Origin: Rhizobium sp. NRK18
Lineage (GTDB): Bacteria > Pseudomonadota > Alphaproteobacteria > Rhizobiales > Rhizobiaceae
DNA: 64,000 bases
Direction of reading: 5' to 3'
Assembly (NCBI RefSeq): GCF_024385575.1
Contig: NZ_JANFMV010000005.1
Location: 1-64,000, forward strand
Positions 10,876 through 25,713 of the stretch are shown here, in pieces. The position numbers were made by a program, and so were the translations under genes. Numbering within the stretch: position 1 is the first letter of the stretch; every line of letters begins with the position of its first letter. Below the pieces are notes generated by a model, which worked only from the letters and a program-made list of their open reading frames with translations, was not told the DNA's origin and ran no database searches.

Positions 10876-11648
10876 GCGAGCCCATTATTGTTTTCGACAA
10901 GGTCAAGAAGGCCTATGGCAATTTCACCGTGCTGAGCGACCTCGATTTCGAGGTCAAGCAGGGGGAGAAGGTCACCATCATCGGCCCGTCCGGCTCCGGC
11001 AAGTCGACCGTGCTGCGCATCCTGATGACGCTGGAAAACATCACCGACGGCGCCGTCTATGTCGGCGGCGAGCCGCTGTGGCACGAACGGCGCAACGGCG
11101 GCCTTGTACCAGCCGGCGAAAAGCACCTGCGCGAGATGCGCACCAAGCTCGGCATGGTGTTCCAGCAGTTCAATCTCTTTCCGCACATGACCGTCTTGCG
11201 CAACCTCACCGAAGCGCCGCGCGTCGTGCTCGGCATGTCGAAGGCGGATGCGAAGGCCCGCGCGGAGGAGCTTCTCGACCTCGTCGGCCTGACTGAACAC
11301 GCCAACAAGTTTCCAGGCCAGCTCTCCGGCGGCCAGCAGCAGCGCGTCGGCATCGCCCGGGCGCTCGCCATGCGGCCGAAGATCCTGCTGTTTGACGAGC
11401 CGACGTCTGCGCTCGACCCTGAACTTGTGGGCGAAGTGCTGAACGTCATTCGCAGGCTCGCCTCGGAGCACGATCTCACCATGCTGATGGTCACCCATGA
11501 AATGCGCTTTGCCCGCGAGATTTCCGACCGCGTCTGCTTCTTCGACAAGGGTCGCATCCGCGAGGAGGGGACGCCTGATGAGATCTTCGGCAACCCGAAG
11601 AACGAGCGCACGCGGCAGTTCCTGAGCGCGGTGCTGGAAGGCGACTGA
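10872..11648 (+). CDS. ehuA: Ectoine/hydroxyectoine ABC transporter ATP-binding protein EhuA
   Basis: This 258-residue ABC ATPase has Walker [10 protein letters not shown] near residue 40, Q-loop FQQFNLFPH, signature LSGGQQQR, Walker [13 protein letters not shown] and H-loop VTHEM. It energises EhuBCD. Its position at the end of the operon (B-C-D-A) differs from the Sinorhizobium meliloti order A-B-C-D. The ectoine-degradation genes that follow ehu in that species are absent here; the next gene is an OsmC protein. Confidence 0.9.
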
Positions 11649-11689
11649 GCGCCGGGACCTCGCAGCCCTTGACCGAGGCTAAGAAACTT

Positions 11690-11723
11690 GCTCCCCATTC
11701 TGGCGGAATGCCGAACGGGGAGC
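11690..11723 (+). other. Hairpin covering the osmC ribosome site
   Basis: GCTCCCC can pair with GGGGAGC 20 bases later, with an inner ATTC/GAAT pairing. The right arm contains the GGGGAG ribosome-binding sequence of the next gene, so folding would hide it. It may also act as a weak terminator after ehuA. Confidence 0.4.
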
Positions 11724-11730
11724 CTGACAC

Positions 11731-12162
11731 ATGAGCACGAAGAAAGCCGTCATCAAGACGCGGAACACCGGTGCCAGAGCCACGATCGGCCGCACCGGCC
11801 GCGTCCGCGTGACGGCGCGCACCGACGGCGAAATCGAGATCGTCACGGCGCCGTCGGAGGCCGGCTTCAATCCGCTCGACCTCATCTACTCCTCGCTAGC
11901 CGCCTGCCTGGTCTTGAGCGCCCGCATCGCGGCCAGCCGCATGGGCATTCTCGACCACATCGAAAGCGTGGAGGCCGACGTCAGCGGCGAGAAGGCCGGC
12001 GACGAGCCCTCGCGGATTGCCCGCTTCAACGTGATCCTCGACATTCGCGGCGAGCTCGACGACGAAACGCGGCAAAAGCTGGCGCATGAGGCGGAAGAGA
12101 TCTGCACCGTCAGCAACACGCTGAAAGGTGATCCGCAATTCACGGTTTCGCTTGCCGGCTGA
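11731..12162 (+). CDS. OsmC family protein
   Basis: The 143-residue protein has the OsmC/Ohr fold pattern with the two expected cysteines, Cys59 in [12 protein letters not shown] and Cys125 in [10 protein letters not shown]. Proteins with this pair reduce organic hydroperoxides or act as redox-linked stress proteins. The sequence is closer to general OsmC-like proteins than to Ohr. It sits 82 bases after the ehu operon, a position that suits osmotic or oxidative stress, but a shared transcript is not shown. Confidence 0.82.
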
Positions 12163-12252
12163 CAAAACTTGATCGCGAAAGCGGTTTGCCTGCCGGCCGG
12201 CGTCTGCTACGCAAGCCACTTCAAAAATGCCCCAGAACGGATTCCGCACACG

Positions 12253-12921
12253 ATGTCACACACCTTCTCCCGCGACTACGCAGCCCTTCTCTTCGACATG
12301 GACGGCACGCTGCTGAACTCCATCGCCCTGGTGGAGCGCATCTGGCGGGAGTGGGCCGACGATCACGGCGTCGACGCCGACGCACTGATGCACCGCATCC
12401 ACGGCATCCGGGCCGTCGAAGTGGTGCGCGCCGAAGGCATTGCCGGCCTCGATCCGGAACGCGAAGCGGCGATCCTGCTTGAACGCGAGCTTGCGACCGT
12501 CGAAGGCGTCGTCGCGATCGAGGGCATCCACCAGTTTCTCGAAACCCTGCCGAAAGACCGCTGGGCGATCGTCACCTCGGCCCCGCGGTCGCTGGCCGAA
12601 CTGCGCCTCGGCGCCGTCGGCATCACGCCGCCCGACATCATGATCGCCGGTGAGGACGTGGTGAACGGCAAGCCGGATCCGGAAGGCTATCTGAAGGGCG
12701 CTGCAGCACTGGGTGTCGACCCCGCCGACTGCGTGGTCTTCGAAGACGCCCATGCCGGCATTGACGCCGCCAAAAGGGCCGGTGCCGCCGTCGTCGTCAT
12801 CTCGGCAACCCATTCGACGCCGATGGACGTGCCGCACCCGAAAATCGACAATTACGATGTGATTGGCGCGGAGCTCACGGAGAACGGCCGCATCAGGCTG
12901 ACGATGCGCGAGGCGGATTGA
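12253..12921 (+). CDS. HAD-family hydrolase (sugar-phosphatase type)
   Basis: This 222-residue haloacid dehalogenase-like hydrolase has motif I LLFDMDGTLLNS (Asp15, Asp17), a small helical cap, motif II VTSAPR, motif III lysine in NGKPDPEGY and motif IV VFEDAHAGIDAAKRAG. Subgroup IA members with this cap usually dephosphorylate sugar phosphates such as 2-deoxyglucose-6-P or glycerol-3-P. The start used is the ATG giving MSHTFSRDY, because an earlier TTG at 12169 adds a poorly conserved stretch. It converges with the GlxA-type gene. Confidence 0.82.
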   Translation: MSHTFSRDYAALLFDMDGTLLNSIALVERIWREWADDHGVDADALMHRIHGIRAVEVVRAEGIAGLDPEREAAILLERELATVEGVVAIEGIHQFLETLPKDRWAIVTSAPRSLAELRLGAVGITPPDIMIAGEDVVNGKPDPEGYLKGAAALGVDPADCVVFEDAHAGIDAAKRAGAAVVVISATHSTPMDVPHPKIDNYDVIGAELTENGRIRLTMREAD

Positions 12922-14070: not shown

Positions 14071-16509
14071 TCAATGACTGCCGTAGGAGGCCGTTTTCGT
14101 GCCGTTGACGGCCGCGATGTGGCCGGCGGGACGGGCGTCCTCAGGCGCGCCGGGACGGCGGACAAGCCTGACGACACGCTCGACGCCGGGCGGCAGGTGG
14201 AACCAGTCATGGGCGGCATAGAAATGATCGTCAACGACGTGAACGGACTGGGCGAGGCGCGCAGTCGAGAGCACCACGGAGAACTCGCCATCGGACTCCT
14301 CCAGCCGTGCCGACAGGCCGAGGTCATGAAGATCCTGACCGCGTCCGAGCGGGAAATAGACCGTCTCGGAGAGGAGCGCGCCGTCCGGCGACGTCAGCCG
14401 CGCGACGACGGCATCGTGGCTCGGCGGGCCGAAACGGTAGGCATAGGTCAGGTCGAAGAACGCGCCGGTCAGCTCGAAGGCGTTGATTTCGCTGTTCGAA
14501 CGAGCGGCCAACTCGACGTCGCGCTTTGCCGAGAGCACCGTCACCTGGCAGTCGCGCAAGGCCGTCAATGACAGCGTGGCGGACTGGGCTTCCGCCGTTT
14601 CGTTGACGAGATGGACGGCGAGCCCATTCGTGCCTTCGTCGGTGAGGATCACACGGACCGGCCGCAGGGCGCCAGCCAGCCCCTGGAACGCCGGCTTCGG
14701 CACGCCGTTTGAACCGATCAGACCCCAGCCGGCACCCGGCGCGAGATCGGCGAGCGTCCAGACCAGTGCGCCATGGCAGCTGGAGCCCGCACGCCGCCAT
14801 TCGTCTAAGGTGGCGGCCATCACCTCGCCGGTGACGGCACGCGAGAGTTCGAGATAACGCGCCTGATCTTCGCGGCGCAGGCGGGCCGGATCGACGCCGT
14901 AGAGGAGCGCCAGATAATGATCGCGGACATCCTCGAAATCCCAGGAAGCGCCGAGATCGCGCGGCACGCCGGCCTTCCAGCGCGGATGGTGGACGGCAGC
15001 GACGGGTAGCGTCGCCTTCAGCGACACCTCGTCCGGGACATTGGCGAAGGCGAGGCTTTCGGCGGCAAAGCGGACATTGGCCCGGCGGGCATCTTCCAGC
15101 GGCCGCATATAGGCGCCGACACCGTAATAATGGCCGACGCCTTCGCTCGGCAGGAAGGGCAGCGCACCGCCGGACGGCGAATTTTCCACGTAAGGTACGT
15201 CCGGACGCAGGCGCTCGGCCTCGCCGGGCAGGATTTCGGTGAAGAGCGGCCCGCGCCAGGCGCTTTCCGGCAAGCCCATCATCGCGCCCTGCTGCATCAC
15301 CTCACTGCCGCCGCACAGGACGGCAAGCGACGGCGAGAGGGCGGTGGCGCCAAGCTGGGTTTCGACCTCGCGCCTCACCTGGGCCACGAAATCAGGATCA
15401 CGGACCGGGTAATCGAAATTGGCGAAGGCGAATTCCTGCCAGACCATCAGGCCGAGCTCGTCGCATAGCTCGAAGAAGGCCGGGCTTTCATAGAGCATCG
15501 TGCCGCCGATGCGGATCATGTTCATGCCCGCGTCGCGGGCAAGGCGCAGCAACGGCTCGTAGGCCTCACGAGTGGTCGGCAGGCGCAGGAGATCGGCGCT
15601 CGTCCAGCAGGCGCCGCGGCAGAAGACCGGGACGCCGTTGACAGTGAACCCGAACCCCTTGCCGTCTGCGCCGCGATCGACCGCGATGCGGCGGAAACCG
15701 GTCTTGCCGAGATCGAAGGCATGTCCGCCGATCTCCAGCGTCACCGGATAGAGCGGCTGGTCGCCGTGTGTCGCGGGCCACCAGGGCGCGACGTCCAGCC
15801 CGTCGATACTGCCGGTGAAGACATGTCCGTCGTCACTGGCAAGCTCCACCGTCCGGCCGGCGCAGGTCAGGTGGACCGGCACGGTCGCGTTTTCAATGGC
15901 GATGGCGACGTCGAGCGAACCCTGTCCGTCGTAATCGGTCGTGGCGCGGAGCGGTCGGATGACGGGCGTATCCAGCCTCTCGATGCGCAGCGGACGGTAG
16001 GGGCCGACGGCGTGGATCTCGGGGCACCAGCCGGGCATGTGGCCGAGCAGCGTGGTGCGAACGAGGCGCAGTCCCTGTTCCGGGATCATCTGCGTCCGCC
16101 AGCGGGCGCGGGGGCCCTTCTTTTCCAGCTCAGGCGCCAGCGCACGGAAGCAGAGGGCGAGCCGGTGAGTGCCGGAAAGATCCACATCGAAGCTGTGGGT
16201 GGCAAACATGTTGCGGGTCGAGCCGATCGGCGCATCGTCGAGATAGATGTCGCAAAGCGTCGCCAGACCTTCGAATGTCAACCGGTGACGGCCCTTGCCC
16301 GAAAGCGTGCCGACATACCAGTGGTCCTGATCGTGGAGCGGGTGCGGGGTCTCCCGATCGAACAGGCCGGCATCTGCAAGCGCACCTGCCACCGTGCCGG
16401 GAAGGGATGCGGGAATGCCGTGATCCTGTGGAAGATCTTTTGGCGTCTCGAAGGCACCGGCCGGCGTCGAGACGAGGCGGAAGACGCCGATGGTTGCTGT
16501 TTCGGTCAA
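14071..16509 (-). CDS. Glycoside hydrolase family 2 protein, beta-mannosidase-like
   Basis: The 812-residue GH2 protein has an N-terminal jelly-roll sugar-binding domain (WYVGTLSGKGRHRLTFEGL), an immunoglobulin-like domain and a TIM-barrel core (GVPVFCRGACW, MNMIRIGGTMLYES). The probable acid/base Glu is in LCGGSEVMQQ and the probable nucleophile is the Glu in RFAAESLAFANVP. The pattern resembles beta-mannosidases, which release terminal beta-mannose. No signal peptide is evident, so it is likely cytoplasmic and acts on imported oligosaccharides. The start is uncertain: TTG 16509 has a GGGGA site, whereas ATG 16551 adds 14 codons at the border of a repeat element. Confidence 0.83.
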   Translation of the reverse strand: MTETATIGVFRLVSTPAGAFETPKDLPQDHGIPASLPGTVAGALADAGLFDRETPHPLHDQDHWYVGTLSGKGRHRLTFEGLATLCDIYLDDAPIGSTRNMFATHSFDVDLSGTHRLALCFRALAPELEKKGPRARWRTQMIPEQGLRLVRTTLLGHMPGWCPEIHAVGPYRPLRIERLDTPVIRPLRATTDYDGQGSLDVAIAIENATVPVHLTCAGRTVELASDDGHVFTGSIDGLDVAPWWPATHGDQPLYPVTLEIGGHAFDLGKTGFRRIAVDRGADGKGFGFTVNGVPVFCRGACWTSADLLRLPTTREAYEPLLRLARDAGMNMIRIGGTMLYESPAFFELCDELGLMVWQEFAFANFDYPVRDPDFVAQVRREVETQLGATALSPSLAVLCGGSEVMQQGAMMGLPESAWRGPLFTEILPGEAERLRPDVPYVENSPSGGALPFLPSEGVGHYYGVGAYMRPLEDARRANVRFAAESLAFANVPDEVSLKATLPVAAVHHPRWKAGVPRDLGASWDFEDVRDHYLALLYGVDPARLRREDQARYLELSRAVTGEVMAATLDEWRRAGSSCHGALVWTLADLAPGAGWGLIGSNGVPKPAFQGLAGALRPVRVILTDEGTNGLAVHLVNETAEAQSATLSLTALRDCQVTVLSAKRDVELAARSNSEINAFELTGAFFDLTYAYRFGPPSHDAVVARLTSPDGALLSETVYFPLGRGQDLHDLGLSARLEESDGEFSVVLSTARLAQSVHVVDDHFYAAHDWFHLPPGVERVVRLVRRPGAPEDARPAGHIAAVNGTKTASYGSH

Positions 16510-16556
16510 GTATGCTTCCCCGTCCTGCCTGACACGATAGATCACGTGCATATTTC

Positions 16557-16668
16557 CGTCATTCCGGCCCTGAGCCGGAATCCAGCGATCCGGCGTCGGC
16601 CGGATCAGAAGACTTTTCCAGCCCAAGGACTTGGGCTGGCTGGATGCCGGATCAAGTCCGGCATGACG
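16557..16668. repeat. Rhizobial-type intergenic palindromic repeat element
   Basis: This 112-base element starts with CGTCATTCCGG and ends with CCGGCATGACG, so its ends are near-inverted copies. Inside are further inverted repeats (ATTCCGG..CCGGAAT, ATCCGGC..GCCGGAT, CAGCCCAAG..CTTGGGCTG). Similar 'ATTCCGGC...' elements are scattered between genes in alphaproteobacterial genomes. It separates the GH2 gene from the four-gene carrier-protein operon and can fold into a strong multi-stem RNA. Confidence 0.7.
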
Positions 16669-16703: not shown

Positions 16704-17711
16704 CTAGCCAGAAAACTTGCTGTCCAGCCCGGCCATCAGCCGATCCCATGCCTCGACGGCAGGCACCATCTGCTCGGCGAGCTTGTCGAAGCGGCCGCGG
16801 GTGACGGCGCGGGCGAGCTGGAACTGCGTGCTCTTCATCGCCTCGCCGATCAGCCGGGCATCCGTGCCGTCTTCGCCCAGCCAGTCGAGATGGCTTGAAA
16901 GAAGCTCGAAATTGGCCCCGAACTGGCGCAGCGTGTTGAACGCGTAGTGATGGAAGGCCGAGAAGGGCCGGCCGGCGAGGCTGGCGGCCTGCTCCGGCAG
17001 GACTTCGGCGAACGCCTTCAGCGGATTGTCCTTCGGGCGCAACGCCAGCTGTTCGGAAAGCCGCTTGCGGGCATAGGCCTTTGGATCGGCGACCGCAGGC
17101 GCGACATCGAATTTGACGAATTCCGAGTAAGGCAGGAACTGCGGAAACTCTCCGTCATCCCCGGGAATCCGGTGGAAGATGCCGTCGAAATCCTCGCCTT
17201 CGAGAACGAAGTAACCGGCATTGTGGAAATACTCCATCGTCCGGTTTTCGATGTCGAGGCGGTTGATCGCGACCGTCGTCTTGCCGTGCTCGGTGCGGTA
17301 GGAGACGCCCTTCGTATCCGGCAGATAATAGCCGTCGACCTCGACGAGGCAGAGGCGACCACGGGCGATCTGCACCGCGACATGGTCTTCCACCCGTTCG
17401 AAGACCGCCAGTTCCTGGTGGCGCAGGCCGTAAAGCGCTTCGATGTCGGCGGTCGGCACCTTGAAGAAGGTCGCCTGGTCGCCCTCGAAATCCTGCGTCA
17501 CGGTGAAGCCGAGCATGGCTTCCGGCGGATGGCCGAGCGTGGCGATCACCTCGATCCAGAGATCCATGAAGCAGTTCGTCTCCGGCCAGCTGCGCTCCGC
17601 GGCATGCAAGGCATGGCGGGGATAATTGTCCGGATCGAGCGCCGGGAAGACGGCCGGTTGGTTTGCCGGAAGAGCGGCGCGCCGCTCTTCCGATGCAGTC
17701 ATTGCGGACAT
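16704..17711 (-). CDS. DUF1839 family protein of carrier-protein operon
   Basis: The protein is 335 residues long and recognised as DUF1839, a family without a known reaction. Visible features are a conserved N-terminal block HALHAAERSWPETNCFMDLW and LGFTVTQDFEGDQATFFK, an acidic central part (IGNRL-like segment INRLDIENRTMEYFHNAGY), and a mostly helical C-terminus. There is no signal peptide or membrane segment. The start ATG (MSAMTASEE) is four bases past the ligase stop; an earlier in-frame start at 17762 would overlap the ligase gene. As the last gene of ACP - flavoprotein - ligase - DUF1839, it probably accepts, transfers or further processes an aminoacyl group on the carrier protein. 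That role is inference only. Confidence 0.8.
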   Translation of the reverse strand: MSAMTASEERRAALPANQPAVFPALDPDNYPRHALHAAERSWPETNCFMDLWIEVIATLGHPPEAMLGFTVTQDFEGDQATFFKVPTADIEALYGLRHQELAVFERVEDHVAVQIARGRLCLVEVDGYYLPDTKGVSYRTEHGKTTVAINRLDIENRTMEYFHNAGYFVLEGEDFDGIFHRIPGDDGEFPQFLPYSEFVKFDVAPAVADPKAYARKRLSEQLALRPKDNPLKAFAEVLPEQAASLAGRPFSAFHHYAFNTLRQFGANFELLSSHLDWLGEDGTDARLIGEAMKSTQFQLARAVTRGRFDKLAEQMVPAVEAWDRLMAGLDSKFSG

Positions 17712-17715
17712 CGCA

Positions 17716-18624
17716 TCAACCCCAGAGCACCTTGCGGACCGATGCCGGCCATTTCTCGACATCGAGACCGTGATGGCGGAAGAGCGCCAGCGTCACGCGT
17801 TCCAGGCCGAAACCGACGCAGGCCGTATGCGCCTCGGCACCGGTGCTGGTCTCGATCCCCCAGGTGTGGCCGAAATGGTTCTGGTGGTAGTTGAAGCTCA
17901 GGCAGGCGGTCGGGTTTTCCTCGCTGTTGACCGGCACCAGAAGCTCGAACTTCAGGCCCTGGTCACGCTGGTTGACCTTCATCATCCGGCCGGCGCGGCC
18001 GAAGAACGGATCGTTGGCGACGTCGACATCCATCGGCAGTTCGAGCGAGGTGATCAGCGCCTTGCCGCGCTCGAGCCATTTTTCGCGGAACTCGACAACC
18101 TCTTCCGGCGTGCCGGCGCGCACATATTCGCGCATGCGGAACATCTGCATGCGCGTCGGCTCTTTCGAGGGCTCGTGGCGGAAGCAGTAGGACTGCAGGT
18201 CGAACAGCCGACCGCCTTCCGGCATGCGGCCGCGCTTGGCGATCAGCGGATAGAGCGGGTAGCAGGCCGCCGGCGTCAGCACGATGTCGGAGGCTTCCTG
18301 CTGGCCTGTCCAGTCCTCGCCGGCCTCCAGGCACTCGATGATGCGGGAATGCCCCTTGTCATCGCCGCAGAAGCAGTGAACGGTGCCGGCAAGCTGCGGA
18401 AAGCTCTTCAGATAGCCGCTCTTTTCGAAATACGGACGGCTCATACCGGGCGGAAAGCGAATGACCTCGGCGCCATCGGCACTGCCATAGCGCGTCACCA
18501 GCGCCTCGAAGCGTTCGATGACATTCTCGAAGGTGCCGCTGCGGCCATAGAGACCGTCGATCCCGGTATCGAAGAGAAGACCGGCTTCCAGCAGCTGGTC
18601 GAGATACGTGTTCTGCATATCCAT
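17716..18624 (-). CDS. Amino acid:[carrier protein] ligase (class II aaRS homologue)
   Basis: The 302-residue protein is a shortened homologue of the seryl-tRNA synthetase catalytic core without a tRNA-binding arm. Motif 2 reads [20 protein letters not shown] and motif 3 GFGLER (271-276). Likely zinc ligands are Cys121, Glu166 and Cys269. In the characterised Bradyrhizobium enzyme Bll0957 I recall Cys131, Glu176 and Cys279, a constant ten-residue offset. Such enzymes activate glycine or alanine with ATP and load it on the phosphopantetheine arm of a small carrier protein, not on tRNA. The carrier gene is two genes upstream. Which amino acid is used cannot be read from sequence alone. Confidence 0.93.
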
Positions 18625-18630
18625 GGGAGC

Positions 18631-19830
18631 CTACCTCAGAAGACTTGTGTCTTGCCGCTGCACGAGCAGCAGGTTCGACGTGTTGGAGAGGATGCGATCG
18701 TTGCTGATCATCAGCCGCGCCGAATGCGCATCGCGCAGGTGCCGGCCGACCGAGTAGGGCGTGCCGTTCTTGTAGCCGAGAATGCCGGTGATCAGCAGCG
18801 CCTGGTCGACGACGGCCAGCACCTGTTCCGACGAGGCGATCTTCAGATTGTTCATCGCCACGGCAAAGCCCATCGAAGAGAGCTTTTCCTGATCGTCCCG
18901 CACGCTTTCGAAATGCTCGAGACCGGCTCGGACGCCGGAGCGCATGGTTTGCAGCACATTGCCGGCCTCCGCGAGACGCAGGGCGCCCGGCGGCTTGACG
19001 TTCGGCTGCTTGCGGGCGGCCGCACGCACGAAGCTTTGGGCGCGGGTGAATGCGTCGACGGCGATGCCGTACCACAGCGCCGACCACAGAAGGTGCGACG
19101 TCGCCAGCATCGACTGGGCGGCGATTTCGGCAAACGGCTTCGGAAAAATCTGGTCGGCAAGCACTTCGCCGCGCAGCATGAAGCCTTCCGAGCAGGTGCC
19201 GCGCATGCCGAGCGTATCCCAGTCATTGGTCTTTTCGAGCGTGTACTGGCCCTTTTCCAGAACCGTCATCACCTGGTCGGACGAAGCCGCATCGGGATGG
19301 CGGCGCGAGGTCGCCAGGATCGCGTCGGCCTCGGCACCGTAGGAAATCACGGTCGCCGCCTTTTCGAGACGCGCCTTGGTACCATCGACTTCGACCGCGC
19401 AGATGGAATTGCGCAGGTCGCCGCCGATACCGGCTTCGGTGGTCGCCGATCCCAAAAGCAGCTGGTCGCGGGAACAGCGCGTCATGTAGGCGGAATGCCA
19501 GGCGCTCTCGACCCCATGCGAGACGAGGCTCGACATCTTGATCTGGTGCATGGCGAAGATCATGCCGGACGAGGCACAGGCCTGACCGATGATCGAAACG
19601 GCCTCGGCGACATCGGCGAGGCTTGCGCCTTCACCGCCGAGCGATTTGGGCACCATCATGCCGAGCAGACGCTCCGTCTTCATGGCGGCGATCGCCTCTT
19701 TCGGGAAACGTGCCCCGCGATCGACGGAATCGGCGTTGGCGGCGGCGACCTCGGCAACCCGTTTTGCCCGTTCGGCATAGCCCGGCAGGACGGCGGACTG
19801 CTCAGGTTCCGGAATGGCGTGAGTGTTCAT
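18631..19830 (-). CDS. Acyl-CoA dehydrogenase-like flavoprotein
   Basis: The 399-residue protein has the acyl-CoA dehydrogenase fold: LLGMMVPKSLGGEGASLADV at the N-terminal helical domain, the middle beta-domain (LGSATTEAGIGGD, TNDWDTLGMRGTCSEGF) and a helical C-terminal domain ending RDAHSARLMISND. The usual catalytic Glu of the C-terminal YEGT motif is replaced around ISND. Since the adjacent genes make an aminoacylated carrier protein, this enzyme may oxidise or otherwise act on the carrier-bound group, as flavoproteins do with prolyl carrier proteins in pyrrole formation. It overlaps the carrier gene stop by one base (TAATG) and ends six bases before the ligase. Confidence 0.87.
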   Translation of the reverse strand: MNTHAIPEPEQSAVLPGYAERAKRVAEVAAANADSVDRGARFPKEAIAAMKTERLLGMMVPKSLGGEGASLADVAEAVSIIGQACASSGMIFAMHQIKMSSLVSHGVESAWHSAYMTRCSRDQLLLGSATTEAGIGGDLRNSICAVEVDGTKARLEKAATVISYGAEADAILATSRRHPDAASSDQVMTVLEKGQYTLEKTNDWDTLGMRGTCSEGFMLRGEVLADQIFPKPFAEIAAQSMLATSHLLWSALWYGIAVDAFTRAQSFVRAAARKQPNVKPPGALRLAEAGNVLQTMRSGVRAGLEHFESVRDDQEKLSSMGFAVAMNNLKIASSEQVLAVVDQALLITGILGYKNGTPYSVGRHLRDAHSARLMISNDRILSNTSNLLLVQRQDTSLLR

Positions 19831-20081
19831 TACGCAGCCTCTTCATCTCCGGTGATCGACGACACCGCGGCGGCGATCGAATTGATCGTCGCGAAGGTGC
19901 GCCGGTTCAAAAGGTTTTCCGGGAACTCGATGTCGAACATGTCCTCGATGCCGAGCATGAGCTGCACCGAGGCGAACGACGTCAGCCCCGCGTCATAGAG
20001 ATCGCTGTCGTCCTTCAGTGACGACGGATCGATGCCGCTATGCTTGCCGATTAGCTCTCTTATCTTCTGCTTCATGGTCAC
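19830..20081 (-). CDS. Acyl/aminoacyl carrier protein
   Basis: This 83-residue carrier protein has the 4'-phosphopantetheine attachment site at Ser35 in DAGLTSFASVQLML, a variant of the usual D-S-L motif common in the carrier partners of amino acid:[carrier protein] ligases. The flanking helices (MKQKIRELIGKHSGI, IEDMFDIEFPENLL) fit a four-helix carrier fold. It is the first gene of a tight four-gene operon, with GGGG before the ATG. The holo form needs a phosphopantetheinyl transferase encoded elsewhere. Confidence 0.92.
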   Translation of the reverse strand: MTMKQKIRELIGKHSGIDPSSLKDDSDLYDAGLTSFASVQLMLGIEDMFDIEFPENLLNRRTFATINSIAAAVSSITGDEEAA

Positions 20082-20274: not shown

Positions 20275-21180
20275 CTATACAGTGCCCCGCGCGAGGCATT
20301 CCCCCAGCCATTTGCGGAATGCGGCAAGCGGCGGGTACATGGCGCGGGCCTCGGGCCAGACGAGCCAATAGGCGCCGGAGCCGGGCACCGAGCGCTTCAG
20401 AAGCGGCACCAGCCGGCTTTCGCGGATTTCGGTGTCGGCGAGAAAATCCGGCAGCAGTGCGATGCCGAGGCCGGCAATCGCCGCCTGGGTCATGGTGGCG
20501 AACTGGTCGAACAGCATGCCGGTGATGTTCGGCGGCGCCGCCTCTTGCGCCGCAAACCAAATGCGCCACGCCGTCGGCCGGGTTTCGAGCTGCAGGAGCG
20601 GCAAATCCTGAAGATCGGCGGCGGTGGCGATCGGGTGCTTTTCCAGGAGGGCAGGCGAAATGCAGGCGGTCAGGGTCTCGTCGAACAGCTTCATATGGCC
20701 GGCATCGCGCCAGTCGTCCGTGCCGAAATGAATGGCGGCGTCGAAGCTTTCGGCGGCGAAGTTGAAGCGCTTCAGCCGGGTCGCCAGATTGACGGTGATG
20801 CCCGGATGGCCCTCCAGAAAATCACCGAGCCGCGGCGCCAGCCAGCGTGTGCCGAAGGCCGGCAGGATGGAGAGCGACAGCGAGCCGCCGCCGGGATTGG
20901 CGGCAAACTCCATGCTGGCGCGCTGAACGAGATCGAGCGCGCGGGTAACGTCGCGGCCATAGGCGAGCGCGGCCTCGGTCGGGATCAGCTTCTGGCGATG
21001 CCGCTCGAACAGCGGATGGCCGAGCTGCTGCTCGAGATTCTGCACCAGACGGCTGACGGTGCTCTGCGTCAGATCGAGATCACGGGCGGCGGCCGCCGTG
21101 GATCCGCTTCTGAGCACCGCCTCGAAAGCGGAGAGAAGGCTGACCGAGGGAAGGAAGCGGCGCGGACGAAAGCTGGACAC
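20275..21180 (-). CDS. LysR-family regulator, GcvA-like
   Basis: This 301-residue LysR protein has a helix-turn-helix with the GcvA-type start FLPSVSLLSAFEAVLRSGS and DLDLTQSTVSRLVQNLE, and an effector domain with the subgroup signature FDAAIHFGTDDW. It lies directly upstream of, and in the same direction as, the carrier-protein operon with 193 bases between. It is the nearest candidate regulator of that operon, though divergent placement, the usual LysR hallmark, is missing. Confidence 0.9.
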   Translation of the reverse strand: MSSFRPRRFLPSVSLLSAFEAVLRSGSTAAAARDLDLTQSTVSRLVQNLEQQLGHPLFERHRQKLIPTEAALAYGRDVTRALDLVQRASMEFAANPGGGSLSLSILPAFGTRWLAPRLGDFLEGHPGITVNLATRLKRFNFAAESFDAAIHFGTDDWRDAGHMKLFDETLTACISPALLEKHPIATAADLQDLPLLQLETRPTAWRIWFAAQEAAPPNITGMLFDQFATMTQAAIAGLGIALLPDFLADTEIRESRLVPLLKRSVPGSGAYWLVWPEARAMYPPLAAFRKWLGECLARGTV

Positions 21181-21316: not shown

Positions 21317-21652
21317 TCAGCTCTGTTCCTCGGAACTGTCATCCAGGTCCTTGTCGAGAGCGACATCCGGAGTCTGCATGATCATGCGTGCATGGCGGAT
21401 GGTGAGAACGTCGACGATCTTGCCATCATAGAGGTAGTCCAGAAGATAGTCACCGACGACGAGTGTGCGTCCGCCCGCAATCTGCAGGCCGTGCATATGG
21501 TTGCCTGTCTCTGGAAACTCGTCGAGCAAATTTCTCGCCTTCTTCATCGCCAGAGAAAAGGTGCGGGCGGCAGGCGGGTTCCGCAAGTGAAGGTATTCCG
21601 CTTCCCGACGGATATAGTCAGCGGCTTTCCTGGAAAGCCGGACCTTCGTCAT
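21317..21652 (-). CDS. ParE/RelE-family toxin
   Basis: The 111-residue protein has the ParE-like pattern: N-terminal helix KVRLSRKAADYIRREAEYL, a central FPETGNHMHGL block and the C-terminal strand motif YLLDYLYDGKIVDVLTIRHAR. ParE-type toxins poison DNA gyrase and RelE types cleave mRNA; the sequence resembles ParE more. It overlaps the preceding antitoxin gene by four bases (ATGA), the usual arrangement. An acidic tail (LDKDLDDSSEEQS) is unusual. Confidence 0.85.
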   Translation of the reverse strand: MTKVRLSRKAADYIRREAEYLHLRNPPAARTFSLAMKKARNLLDEFPETGNHMHGLQIAGGRTLVVGDYLLDYLYDGKIVDVLTIRHARMIMQTPDVALDKDLDDSSEEQS

Positions 21653-21909
21653 GCGACCTTGCCGGCGATGATGCGATCCATCTCGGCGATGACGTCATCC
21701 ATGTCCTCGCGCTCGCCTGCGGCGATCTGTTCACGCCCGTGAACGGCGGACAGCAGTTCAGCCCCCTCGTTGAGCAGGTAGGTTCTGAGCGCCCGGACGA
21801 TGATGTAGCTTCTGGATCGCTCGGTGGCATCGGCGATCTGCTCGATCTCTGCCAGAACGTCCGATGGCACGCGGAGGGTGACGGATTCCGTCGTTGCAGG
21901 TTTCGTCAT
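21649..21909 (-). CDS. Ribbon-helix-helix (CopG/ParD-type) antitoxin
   Basis: This 86-residue protein starts with a ribbon strand ESVTLRVPSDVLAEIEQI and the helix ERSRSYIIVRALRTYL, a clear ribbon-helix-helix DNA-binding domain, followed by an acidic toxin-binding tail (REDMDDVIAEMDRIIAG). AAGGAGG sits just before the chosen ATG. Upstream direct repeats likely form its operator. It should neutralise the ParE-like protein and repress the pair. Confidence 0.88.
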   Translation of the reverse strand: MTKPATTESVTLRVPSDVLAEIEQIADATERSRSYIIVRALRTYLLNEGAELLSAVHGREQIAAGEREDMDDVIAEMDRIIAGKVA

Positions 21910-21926
21910 GCGGACCTCCTTGAAGC

Positions 21927-21944
21927 GTAAGACAATGTAAGACA
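21927..21944 (-). promoter_or_regulatory. Direct-repeat operator of the toxin-antitoxin pair
   Basis: GTAAGACA occurs twice with starts ten bases apart, about one helical turn, 18 to 35 bases upstream of the antitoxin ATG. Ribbon-helix-helix repressors often bind such helically phased short repeats. Confidence 0.55.
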
Positions 21945-21990
21945 CTTCAGGCAGCGATGCAACGACACGACCAATTGAACCAAGATCCCA

Positions 21991-22812
21991 TCAGAACGTC
22001 GGCGGCGTGTTGATCCAGATGAGGACGGTTTCGGTGTCGGCGGCGTTGCGCCAGGAATGCGGGCGGCGGCTTTCGAAATAGAAGCTGTCGCCGGCGGCAA
22101 GCTCGAAGAAGCGGTCGCCGTCGAGGACGATTTCAAGCCGGCCGGAAAGGACGTGGATGAACTCCTCGCCCTCGTGCTGATAGGCGCCTTCGCTGGAGGC
22201 GCCGGGCGCGAGCTGGAAGCGGTGGCAGTCCATCTGGTTCTGCCCTTCGGCCAGCACGTTGACGGTGACGCCGGAGGAAGAGGGTGGCCAGGACTTCCAC
22301 GCACCGCCCCGCACCAGCGATTCCCCCTGTCCGGCGACGTCCTGGCCGCTGAGCGCCGCAACCGTGGTGCCGAGATGCTGGGCGACCGTATGCAGGGTCG
22401 TGAAGGAGAGCCCCTGGGAGGTGCGCTCGAAGGTGGAAAGAACCGAGGCGGAGATGCCGCATGCGGCGGCAACGGCGTCCAGGGTGGCACCCGCCGCCTG
22501 TCGCAGCCGCCGCACCTTGCGGCCGATCGGGATGCCCGCGGGCTCCCGCCGCTTCCGGCGTGCCGGCTCGGTTTTCCGGACAGCCGGCCTGTCTTCCATG
22601 CTGTCGCGGATCGCGGCCGGGTTCAGCCCCTTCTCGCTGCGCAGCCAGGCGATCGTCTTCAGCCGGTCCACCAGCGTCTGGTCGTAGAGCCGCTGGCCGC
22701 TGTCGGTGCGGATCGGTTCGATCAGCCCCTGGCTTTCCCACAGCCTCAGCGTCGAGGGGGAAACGCCGGCAATCCGCGCGGCTTCGGCGATCTTGAAACG
22801 GACATCGTTCAT
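21991..22812 (-). CDS. MerR-XRE-cupin triple-domain regulator
   Basis: The 273-residue protein fuses three parts: a MerR-type winged helix at 1-70 (FKIAEAARIAGVSPSTLRLWES), a second helix-turn-helix of XRE type at about 96-155 (IGRKVRRLRQAAGATLDAVA) after a basic linker, and a cupin sensor domain at about 185-268 (HEGEEFIHVLSGRLEIVLDG). XRE-cupin regulators such as PuuR control putrescine/GABA catabolism, and this gene is divergent from gabT-gabD, so it probably regulates them. Two DNA-binding domains of different families in one chain are uncommon. GGAG lies before the chosen ATG. Confidence 0.88.
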   Translation of the reverse strand: MNDVRFKIAEAARIAGVSPSTLRLWESQGLIEPIRTDSGQRLYDQTLVDRLKTIAWLRSEKGLNPAAIRDSMEDRPAVRKTEPARRKRREPAGIPIGRKVRRLRQAAGATLDAVAAACGISASVLSTFERTSQGLSFTTLHTVAQHLGTTVAALSGQDVAGQGESLVRGGAWKSWPPSSSGVTVNVLAEGQNQMDCHRFQLAPGASSEGAYQHEGEEFIHVLSGRLEIVLDGDRFFELAAGDSFYFESRRPHSWRNAADTETVLIWINTPPTF

Positions 22813-22872
22813 GGCTGCTCCGGCCGGAAGGAAACCCGGCCCTGAGGCCCGGATTAAATCGTTACGGCCATA

Positions 22873-22897
22873 TTGCAACTCTACAGAAAAAATGCAA
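22873..22897. promoter_or_regulatory. Candidate operator between the cupin regulator and gabT
   Basis: TTGCA and TGCAA form an inverted repeat with a 15-base spacer in the 138-base divergent gap. The arms are short, so this is only a candidate site for the MerR-XRE-cupin regulator. Confidence 0.25.
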
Positions 22898-22950
22898 GAA
22901 ATCTATTCAAGGCGGCAGGCGCCGGTTTTCCAGATCGAAGGGGATCTCCC

Positions 22951-24231
22951 ATGCTCAACAACGAAGTTGCAACCCGTCGCTCCGACGCCATTTCGCGCGG
23001 CGTCGGCGTCACCACGCAGGTCTATGCCGACAAGGCAGAGAACGCCGAGATCTGGGACATCGAAGGCCGCCGCTATATCGACTTTGCCGCCGGCATCGCC
23101 GTCGTCAACACCGGCCACCGGCATCCGAAGGTGATCGCGGCCGTCAAGGATCAGCTCGATCACTTCACCCACACCTGCCATCAGGTAGTGCCCTACGAGA
23201 ACTACGTCCGGCTCGCCGAGCGGCTGAACGATCTCGTTCCCGGCCAGTTCAAGAAGAAGACCGTCTTCGTCACGACCGGCGCCGAAGCCGTCGAAAACGC
23301 CGTGAAGATCGCCCGCGCAGCCACCAACCGCTCCGCCGTCATCGCCTTTACCGGCGCCTTCCATGGCCGCACTTTCATGGGCATGACGCTGACCGGCAAG
23401 GTCGTGCCCTACAAGACGGGCTTCGGCGCGATGATGCCCGACGTCTTCCACGTGCCGTTCCCGGTCGCGCTGCACGGCACGACGCCGGAAGAGTCGCTCG
23501 CCGTCCTGGACAAGCTGTTCAAGGCCGACGTCGACCCGAACCGCGTCGCGGCCTTCATCGTCGAGCCGGTGCAGGGCGAGGGCGGTTTCTATGAAGTGCC
23601 GCGCGCCTTCATGACGAAGCTGCGCGAACTTGCCGACAAGCATGGCATCCTGATGATCGCCGACGAGGTGCAGACCGGCTTTGCCCGCACGGGCAAGATG
23701 TTTGCCATGGAGCATTACGGCGTCGTCGCCGACATCACCACCATGGCCAAGGGCCTTGGCGGCGGGTTCCCGATCGCTGCCGTCACCGGCCGCGCCGAGA
23801 TCATGGATGCGCCCGGCCCCGGCGGTCTTGGCGGCACCTATGGTGGCAACCCGATCGGTATTGCCGCCGGCAATGCGGTGCTCGACGTCATCGCGGAAGA
23901 AAAGCTCTGCGAGCGGGCGGATTCGCTTGGCAACCGGCTCAAACAGCGGCTGCAGTCCTTGACGGAAGCCGTGCCCCAGATCGCCGACATCCGCGGTCCG
24001 GGCTTCATGAATGCGGTCGAGTTCAACCTGCCCGGAACAAAGACGCCGGACGCGGATTTTGCTAACAAGGTCCGCGCCAAGGCGCTCGACAAGGGCCTCA
24101 TCCTGCTGACCTGCGGCGTCTACGGAAACGTCATCCGCTTCCTGTCGCCGATCACCATCCAGGACGACGTCTTCGCCGAGGCGCTCGACATTCTTGAAAC
24201 CACATTGCGCGAATGCGCCAAGGAAGCCTGA
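22951..24231 (+). CDS. gabT: 4-aminobutyrate aminotransferase
   Basis: This 426-residue class III PLP-dependent aminotransferase has the motifs VTTGAEAVENAVKIARAAT and FTGAFHGRTFMGMTLTGK, the cofactor Asp in LMIADEVQTGFARTG and the Schiff-base Lys267 in MAKGLGGGFP. Length and sequence fit GabT, which moves the amino group of GABA to 2-oxoglutarate to give succinic semialdehyde. gabD follows three bases later. The ATG preceded by AAGGGG (MLNNEVATRRSD) is chosen. Confidence 0.95.
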   Translation: MLNNEVATRRSDAISRGVGVTTQVYADKAENAEIWDIEGRRYIDFAAGIAVVNTGHRHPKVIAAVKDQLDHFTHTCHQVVPYENYVRLAERLNDLVPGQFKKKTVFVTTGAEAVENAVKIARAATNRSAVIAFTGAFHGRTFMGMTLTGKVVPYKTGFGAMMPDVFHVPFPVALHGTTPEESLAVLDKLFKADVDPNRVAAFIVEPVQGEGGFYEVPRAFMTKLRELADKHGILMIADEVQTGFARTGKMFAMEHYGVVADITTMAKGLGGGFPIAAVTGRAEIMDAPGPGGLGGTYGGNPIGIAAGNAVLDVIAEEKLCERADSLGNRLKQRLQSLTEAVPQIADIRGPGFMNAVEFNLPGTKTPDADFANKVRAKALDKGLILLTCGVYGNVIRFLSPITIQDDVFAEALDILETTLRECAKEA

Positions 24232-24234
24232 TCC

Positions 24235-25713
24235 ATGACCATTTCCGACACCCTCACCAAGAAACTCAAGGATCCGAGCCTCGCCGTCGACAAGGCCTAT
24301 ATCGCCGGCAAATGGGTCGACAGGAGCGATAGCGGCAAGACGTTCGAGATCACCAACCCGGCCAATGGCGAGGTGATCGCCACCGTGCCGGACATGAACC
24401 GCACCGAGACCGCCCGCGCGATCGATGCGGCCTACAAGGCGCAGAAGGAGTGGGCGAAGAAGACCGGCAAGGAACGCGCCGCGGTCCTGCGCAAGCTCTA
24501 CGACCTGATGGTCGCCAATGCCGATGACCTCGCGATCATCCTGACGATGGAAATGGGCAAGCCGGTTGCCGAAGCGAAGGGCGAGATCCTCTACGGCGCA
24601 TCTTACGTCGAGTGGTTCGGCGAGGAAGCAAAGCGCGTCTACGGCGACACCATTCCGGGCCACCAGGCCGACAAGCGCATCCTCATCATCAAGCAGCCGG
24701 TCGGGGTCGTCGGCGCCATCACGCCCTGGAACTTCCCGAATGCGATGCTCGCCCGCAAGATGGCGCCGGCGCTCGCCGCCGGTTGCGCCATGGTGTCGAA
24801 GCCCGCCGGTGAAACGCCGCTGTCGGCGCTGGCGCTGGCCCTGCTCGCCGAACGTGCCGGCCTGCCCGCCGGCCTGTTCAACGTCATCCTGTCGTCGGAT
24901 TCCTCCTCTGTCGGCAAGGAGCTCTGCGAGAACGACAAGGTCCGCAAGCTGACGTTCACCGGCTCGACCAATGTCGGCAAGATCCTGATGCGCCAGGGTG
25001 CCGACCAGATCATGAAGCTCGGCCTTGAGCTTGGCGGTAATGCGCCGTTCATCGTCTTCGACGACGCCGACCTCGACGCGGCCGTCGAAGGGGCGATGGT
25101 CTCCAAGTACCGCAACAACGGCCAGACCTGCGTCTGCGCCAACCGGCTCTACGTGCAGGCCGGCGTCTATGACGCGTTTGCCGACAAGCTTGCCGCCAAG
25201 GTCGCCCAGATGAAGGTCGGCGACGGTTTCGCCGATGGCGTGAATGCCGGCCCCCTGATCACCGACAAGGCGCTCGCCAAGGTCGAGGAGCACATCGAGG
25301 ACGCGCTCGGCAAGGGCGCCAAGGTGGCGATCGGCGGCAAGCGCGACAAGCAGGGCGGGCTGTTCTTCGAGCCGACGATCCTGACCGGCGTGACGACCGA
25401 GATGAAGGTCGCGCGCGAAGAAACCTTCGGCCCTGTCGCACCGCTCTTCAAGTTCGACACCGAAGAGGAAGTGATCGAGATGGCCAACAACACCGAATTC
25501 GGCCTTGCCTCCTATTTCTACTCGAAGGATCTCTCGAAGGTCTTCCGTGTTGCCGAGGCGCTGGAATACGGTATGGTCGGCATCAATACCGGCCTGATCT
25601 CCACCGAAACCGCCCCCTTCGGCGGTATCAAGCAGTCCGGCCAGGGCCGCGAAGGCTCGAAATACGGGATCGAGGACTATATCGAGATCAAGTATCTCTG
25701 CCTCAGCATCTGA
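24235..25713 (+). CDS. gabD: Succinate-semialdehyde dehydrogenase (NADP+)
   Basis: This 492-residue aldehyde dehydrogenase has the cofactor motif FTGSTNVGK, the general base Glu266 in LELGGNAPF and the nucleophile Cys299 in NNGQTCVCANR. The Cys-X-Cys pair is the redox-sensitive pair known in GabD enzymes. It completes GABA breakdown by oxidising succinic semialdehyde to succinate. It lies three bases after gabT in the same operon and is followed by a strong terminator. Confidence 0.95.
   Translation: MTISDTLTKKLKDPSLAVDKAYIAGKWVDRSDSGKTFEITNPANGEVIATVPDMNRTETARAIDAAYKAQKEWAKKTGKERAAVLRKLYDLMVANADDLAIILTMEMGKPVAEAKGEILYGASYVEWFGEEAKRVYGDTIPGHQADKRILIIKQPVGVVGAITPWNFPNAMLARKMAPALAAGCAMVSKPAGETPLSALALALLAERAGLPAGLFNVILSSDSSSVGKELCENDKVRKLTFTGSTNVGKILMRQGADQIMKLGLELGGNAPFIVFDDADLDAAVEGAMVSKYRNNGQTCVCANRLYVQAGVYDAFADKLAAKVAQMKVGDGFADGVNAGPLITDKALAKVEEHIEDALGKGAKVAIGGKRDKQGGLFFEPTILTGVTTEMKVAREETFGPVAPLFKFDTEEEVIEMANNTEFGLASYFYSKDLSKVFRVAEALEYGMVGINTGLISTETAPFGGIKQSGQGREGSKYGIEDYIEIKYLCLSI

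Follow-up and report, generated by a model that had tools for sequence, protein, structure and literature searches.

A six-component aminoacyl-carrier system of Rhizobium sp. NRK18 and its possible role in decorating an exported polysaccharide

What becomes of an amino acid once a relative of the tRNA synthetases has loaded it onto a carrier protein? The question is raised by a cassette of genes in a 64,000 nt stretch of the Rhizobium sp. NRK18 genome (contig NZ_JANFMV010000005.1, positions 1–64,000; hereafter the window). The cassette encodes an aminoacyl carrier protein, an acyl-CoA-dehydrogenase-like flavoprotein, an amino acid:[carrier protein] ligase, a DUF1839 protein and a GH2 beta-mannosidase-like protein; a tandem alpha/beta-hydrolase encoded on another contig is a sixth partner. 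The evidence is evenly balanced on whether these form a six-component aminoacyl-carrier pathway whose product is an amino-acid-decorated unit of an exported polysaccharide. An earlier note on this DNA considered the product of the whole route to be undescribed, a view that goes too far. In a note in proof, Iyer et al. (2010) had already linked a synthetase paralogue to a carrier, a redox enzyme, a conserved open reading frame (Atu2574), a glycosidase and glycan genes, and had predicted an amide linkage with a cell-surface sugar through its amino group (PMC2922099). Where a 2022 review touches on the aminoacyl-carriers of synthetase-like ligases, they are still without known use, as they have been since 2010 (PMC9437257).

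Gene order and co-inheritance

All five cassette genes are located on the minus strand and are transcribed in the order carrier (19830..20081), flavoprotein (18631..19830), ligase (17716..18624, 302 aa), DUF1839 (16704 to ~17711) and GH2 (14071..16551; PF22666, 46.2 bits against a cut-off of 27, start picked by eye). The carrier and flavoprotein genes overlap by 1 base, the flavoprotein and ligase genes are separated by 6 bases, and the ligase gene ends 4 bases from the likely ATG of DUF1839 at 17711 (an alternative start is at 17762). The packing of four genes with gaps of 6 bases or less, as first noticed in the window, is thus confirmed. The unit itself had been drawn too small, since GH2 and the often unlinked hydrolase bring it to six components; a simple four-gene operon was rejected because GH2 follows DUF1839 in all loci read.

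These loci number 47: the window, 18 from a genome collection and 28 stretches surrounding the remaining DUF1839 matches of 151 genomes from the window's family. All were found via DUF1839 and are uninformative on ligases that occur without it. The five genes lie in the above order on one strand in 43 of the 47. Two of the exceptions (L028 and L038) are cut by contig ends, and two, from Propionibacteriaceae, hold only DUF1839 and GH2 at that place; GH2 stands after DUF1839 in 47/47. In Chenggangzhangella methanolivorans CHL1 (L037:5163-11634, counted among the 43) the flavoprotein, DUF1839 and GH2 frames are broken, through either sequencing errors or decay.

Genome-wide searches were made for DUF1839, the ligase, GH2 and the hydrolase, while the carrier and flavoprotein were judged at the cassette. 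Among the 151 family genomes, DUF1839 is found in 28, a ligase above its cut-off in 28, a GH2 orthologue (at least 48 % identity; other GH2 matches do not exceed 174.6 bits) in 28, and a hydrolase of at least 220 bits (others below 30 bits; in two pieces in G093) in 28. These are the same 28 genomes (p 4e-31 for the 28/123 split), and all of them have the carrier and flavoprotein; three more genomes (G022, G065 and G141) contain weaker ligase-like matches. Likewise, DUF1839 occurs in 16 of 398 genomes drawn from the phylum, all 16 with the ligase and with a hydrolase of at least 429 bits (next match 148.5). Of the other genomes in this draw, one (G468) contains only the hydrolase and 12 contain only an over-cut-off ligase. 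The expectation that the genes travel together therefore stands in one direction: every DUF1839 genome has the ligase (28/28 in the family, 16/16 in the phylum), but 12 of the 28 over-cut-off ligase genomes of the phylum draw are without DUF1839, and the statement that DUF1839 is present wherever the ligase is was rejected on this count.

The cassette also occurs on plasmids. DUF1839 matches are present in 59 of 72,556 plasmid records; of nine regions opened, eight contain all five cassette genes and five the hydrolase (tblastn). In two Propionibacteriaceae genomes the system is split: one locus (L090:7828-12173, L091:7819-12168) holds the genes for carrier, flavoprotein, ligase and hydrolase, and a second one those for DUF1839 and GH2. 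An ACPS-type phosphopantetheinyl transferase (PF01648; 41.6 bits in L090, the copy scanned) is also encoded in the first of these loci.

Loading and oxidation of the amino acid

The carrier (PF00550, 41.5 bits; NF005480, 97.7 bits against a cut-off of 72) has its 4′-phosphopantetheine site at Ser35 when counted from the GTG start, or Ser33 from an alternative ATG at 20075, and the residue is Ser in 43/43 aligned carriers. Its nearest solved chains are the carrier of 4h2w and Atu2571 (2jq4), at 77 bits each. The ligase scores 513.6 bits with NF005479, above the cut-off of 357, and 350.9 bits with 4h2w. The motifs RHE (motif 2) and GFGLER (motif 3) start at residues 149 and 271, respectively; C121, R149, E151, E166 and C269 are each kept in 44/44 aligned ligases. 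All the motif, metal-site and carrier residues that the earlier note had listed are thus present. The metal residues align in 4h2w with Bll0957 131/176/279, after subtraction of an inferred 20-residue tag offset, which we take to be zinc-binding positions. The Pfam match covers the catalytic core only, with no tRNA-binding domain, and the carrier lies in the same operon; the product of 17716..18624 is predicted from its sequence to charge the carrier rather than a tRNA. Homologous ligases load Gly or Ala.

Seven of the 12 genomes with a ligase and no DUF1839 were opened. The flavoprotein adjoins the ligase in all seven, at 39–48 % identity to that of the window, and a divergent carrier is found in five; no match to DUF1839, GH2 or the hydrolase occurs within the seven spans. 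Thus the flavoprotein is part of the loading module, and it most likely acts on the aminoacyl-carrier. The numbering of Bradyrhizobium bll0957 and bll0958 (acd) as neighbours fits such a module of ligase and flavoprotein (PMC10888616).

The domain scores of the flavoprotein are 40.3 bits for PF02771 (cut-off 22.9) and 21.8 for PF00441, just below its cut-off of 22.4. Profile matches are led by the short-chain acyl-CoA dehydrogenase 7p98 (101.3 bits), followed by 3pfd (79.6), DnmZ (78) and further dehydrogenases; lower are 3m9v/4kcf (~67.5), presumably KijD3, the nitrososynthase 3mxl (65.7) and, lower again, 5xb8 (57.9) and DszC relatives. The catalytic Glu of acyl-CoA dehydrogenases is taken here to lie at position 376 of medium-chain acyl-CoA dehydrogenase (MCAD) or 254 of isovaleryl-CoA dehydrogenase (IVD). 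In the printed 3pfd alignment the MCAD-376 column is occupied by Ile375 in 44/44 flavoproteins, and no Glu or Asp is found across the 44 at the alternative position, residues 240–250. With moderate confidence, this pattern suggests that the protein is an oxygenase or oxidase acting on the carrier-bound amino acid. Iyer et al., in the same note in proof, also guessed at monooxygenation by the redox enzyme (PMC2922099).

DUF1839, the tandem hydrolase and the likely acceptor

A sequence search with DUF1839 (PF08893, 388.5 bits) against solved chains returned nothing (best E 0.49), and a fold search was therefore needed. The predicted fold is papain-like, and its strong matches, to CcbD, CtaG and AziU3, include neither peptidases nor thioesterases. 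AziU3 tops both fold comparisons, with CcbD and CtaG tied in Z (within 1). Counted from the codon at 17645, Cys25 is invariant (81/81) and starts the first long helix (25–36), residue 123 is Thr in 80/81 and Ser in 1/81, and His141 is kept in 81/81. DUF1839 is predicted on this basis to be a carrier-dependent amide-forming transferase with Cys25 as nucleophile. Read in this way, the modelled fold supports the 2010 prediction of an amide by an independent route.

A papain-like fold with invariant Cys25 and His141 could also belong to a thioesterase-like enzyme, which would set free the oxidised amino acid and so yield a small nitrogen metabolite; the flavoprotein could yield the oxidised aminoacyl thioester, and GH2 would be incidental. 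This is quite improbable, given that the fold is matched strongly by CcbD, CtaG and AziU3 rather than by thioesterases or peptidases, that GH2 comes after DUF1839 in 47/47 loci, and that GH2 and the hydrolase are co-inherited with it. A fold of this type is easier to reconcile with transfer to an acceptor amine than with release. Of the earlier suggestion that the flavoprotein and DUF1839 modify or release the carrier-bound amino acid, work on that amino acid is most likely, but release as a small nitrogen metabolite fits worse.

Among DUF1839 proteins assigned to a named species, the nearest (75 %) comes from Hartmannibacter diazotrophicus. Second copies of DUF1839 outside the cassette are found in Burkholderiales (Cupriavidus metallidurans CH34, G403 and G474), and those at L073:12001-12930 and L100:115-1038 are located no more than ~5 kb from the tandem hydrolase.

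The hydrolase has ~600 aa and two alpha/beta-hydrolase domains. In 23/47 loci it lies within the span examined, and it is the sixth operon gene in Azospirillum brasilense and Mycetohabitans rhizoxinica. In the C-terminal half, the Cys of a GxCxG motif is kept in 34/34, Asp in 34/34 and His in 33/34, whereas the nucleophile of the N-terminal half is mostly lost (Ser in 2/34). The halves match TIGR03101 and TIGR03100, at 67 and 88.3 bits in L022 and at 91.6 and 85.7 bits in the copy of the window's genome; the cut-offs of these XrtA hydrolase families (202.75 and 168.45) are reached neither by the L022 copy nor by three other copies scanned. Its fold comparison is generic (esterases, lipases and thioesterases) and uninformative beyond alpha/beta-hydrolase; PhaC is absent among its 50 rows, which excludes nothing.

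The location of the hydrolase points to a glycan acceptor. In the window's genome it is unlinked to the cassette (G000:C1:2765424-2767115), and within ~13 kb are two GT4 glycosyltransferases, a GH5 protein, two GINT1_N proteins, a chain-length protein (GNVR 32.7 bits; Wzz 22.7, below its cut-off) and a Wzx-type flippase (PF01943, 32 bits). The GINT1_N-domain proteins are at L086:5020-6453 and 11293-12792, with 111 and 113 bits. Polysaccharide-type clusters were also recognised near unlinked hydrolase copies of other genomes in five of seven loci. In G468, an adenylation domain (TIGR01733, 346.1 vs 317.4 bits), a carrier and the hydrolase lie in a row (L098:7514-11309) that adjoins a Wzc-type kinase and a glycosyltransferase, and neither DUF1839 nor the ligase was found in that genome. 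The adenylation domain here replaces the ligase, and this exchange of loading enzymes connects the hydrolase with carrier-bound amino acids at a polysaccharide locus.

These settings bear on two other readings. The same condensing chemistry might instead give a free small molecule, an aminoacyl-sugar or lincosamide-like pseudo-dipeptide that GH2 and the hydrolase trim or release. The fold relatives of DUF1839 (CcbD, CtaG and AziU3) are natural-product enzymes, DUF1839 occurs on plasmids, the cassette of the window is away from recognised glycan genes, and a major facilitator superfamily transporter gene adjoins the cassette in Phyllobacterium. However, the Wzx, Wzz and glycosyltransferase genes around the hydrolase of the window's genome, and the clusters at five of the seven other unlinked loci, speak for an exported polysaccharide, and a free product is considered unlikely. 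Alternatively, the hydrolase, through its conserved Cys-Asp-His, could be the true transferase to the glycan, forming an ester or amide, with DUF1839 performing an AziU3-like internal reaction on the carrier-bound intermediate. The conserved residues, the pairing of carrier and hydrolase with an adenylation domain but no DUF1839 in G468, and the top rank of AziU3 in both DUF1839 comparisons are consistent with this. The tie of CcbD and CtaG with AziU3 and the generic fold matches of the hydrolase count against it, and the arrangement appears improbable.

The closest solved proteins to GH2 are the beta-mannosidases 5n6u (277.8 bits) and 2vjx (248.3 bits). E420 and E501 align with the acid/base and nucleophile glutamates of 2vjx and are kept in 46/46 readable sequences. 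The Asn before the acid/base Glu is absent, with GNNE in 2vjx vs GGSE here and Ser in 46/46 readable sequences, and no signal peptide is apparent by eye. GH2 may have glycosidase activity with an unusual specificity, or else act as a transglycosidase.

From the genes, their order, their co-inheritance, the conserved residues and the predicted fold, we infer the chemistry and acceptor of the favoured polysaccharide pathway as follows. The ligase would adenylate a small amino acid (Gly or Ala, judging by homologues) and load it onto the holo-carrier. The flavoprotein would oxidise the carrier-bound amino acid, with oxygenation at N or the alpha carbon likelier than alpha,beta-dehydrogenation. 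The Cys of DUF1839 would then take the aminoacyl group and hand it to a sugar amine, giving an amide as CcbD does, and GH2 and the Cys-nucleophile tandem hydrolase would handle or finish the glycan. A fuller version, in which surface glycans would be decorated in a new manner, is offered tentatively and is doubtful in its entirety: the synthetase-derived ligase and a flavin oxygenase would give an oxidised (e.g. N-hydroxylated) aminoacyl-carrier, DUF1839, as a relative of the lincosamide condensing enzyme with a swapped triad, would install the amide on a cytosolic sugar, GH2 and the hydrolase would complete the unit before Wzx export, and the pathway would be spread over Alphaproteobacteria, Betaproteobacteria and Actinomycetota.

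Several observations weigh against the favoured pathway. In the window, inspection of 24 kb revealed no recognisable polysaccharide gene around the cassette, and by eye none was seen near the carrier-ligase-hydrolase locus of the Propionibacteriaceae. Just 22 of the 47 spans held a recognised Wz or glycosyltransferase cluster, a count made without a random-window control and likely too low, as only shared, named clusters were counted. Plasmid p4 of Rhizobium binae carries genes one to four of the cassette, and a GH2 match is absent from the 28.9 kb covered. In the flavoprotein, residue 378, three columns past the Glu column, is acidic in 44/44 (Asp in 39, Glu in 5) and could serve as the catalytic base if the alignment is shifted; in the printed alignment, moreover, the Glu column of the best match, 7p98, is occupied by Thr. 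The fold likeness of DUF1839 rests on 9–12 % identity, and AziU3 is presumably not an amide former. Finally, the catalytic order of DUF1839 has been given as Cys-(Thr/Ser)-His vs Cys-His-Glu in CcbD, so that the chemistry may differ (PMC10318531); residues 123 and 141 agree with this swapped order, in a triad comparison with CcbD made without residue-level superposition.

Surroundings of the cassette and related systems

The 152 bp between DUF1839 and GH2 contain a palindromic intergenic repeat (16641..16668), which has 8 sites in the genome with up to two mismatches and none for a reversed-pattern control. Directly upstream of the carrier gene is a LysR/GcvA-like regulator (20275-21180, minus strand). 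A relative with 53.5 % identity lies near the cassette in L076 (21840-22697), and LysR cluster members are found in L053 and L056, thus in 3/47 loci counting the window; tblastn of the LysR and an AraC protein over the first 39 loci, 21 of them with short flanks, gave one weak LysR match. Further upstream are overlapping small genes resembling, by eye, a ParE/RelE-type toxin and a ribbon-helix-helix antitoxin (21317-21945, minus strand), and a MerR/cupin regulator gene that diverges from genes for a class III aminotransferase and an aldehyde dehydrogenase (21991-25713), a set that by eye suggests gamma-aminobutyrate or putrescine-type catabolism. EF-P, EpmA and lysine-aminomutase neighbours were rejected as partners: such clusters occur in 7, 9 and 8 of the 47 loci, so few that they are treated as local synteny.

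If the proposed pathway is correct, a long-orphaned carrier-protein branch of the tRNA synthetases gains a testable job. The CcbD fold link suggests which enzyme probably acts next, which residue is its nucleophile and what type of acceptor to expect; the glycan locus in which that acceptor should lie is indicated by the sixth gene. If the fold link holds, DUF1839 would be a widespread cousin of LmbD/CcbD, proteins that were described in 2015 as resembling no sequence (PMC4351081).

Among related systems, the nearest are the Agrobacterium Atu2571-2575 and Bradyrhizobium amino acid:[carrier protein] ligase systems, with the same ligase and carrier families (2jq4, 77 bits), a redox enzyme, a conserved open reading frame and a glycosidase. 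They are reportedly the subject of Mocibob's work of 2010 and 2013. Atu2574 is equated with DUF1839 by inference from gene order. To these accounts the present analysis adds a sixth component, a fold of the CcbD type, evidence from phyletic distribution, a split form in actinobacteria and the adenylation-domain substitution. The lincosamide condensing enzymes CcbD and LmbD have 11–13 % identity to DUF1839 and a different operon, with a Cys-His-Glu triad and activation by an adenylation domain, whereas Cys-(Thr/Ser)-His is described for DUF1839 and activation is by a synthetase-like ligase. CtaG and AziU3 belong to natural-product pathways of other chemistry, presumably those of closthioamide and azinomycin.

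XrtA hydrolases 1 and 2 resemble the halves of the tandem hydrolase (TIGR03101 and TIGR03100) and share its polysaccharide setting, and exosortase-A (XrtA) systems likewise include an AMP ligase together with a carrier; the tandem hydrolase differs in being one fused chain and in scoring well below the curated cut-offs. Dlt places D-Ala on teichoic acid and AlmEFG places Gly on lipid A, in both cases taking the amino acid via an adenylate and a carrier protein to a surface glycan or lipid, as is proposed here. Those systems employ other ligase and transferase families and form esters, whereas the cassette combines a predicted condensing enzyme with a flavoprotein and GH2.

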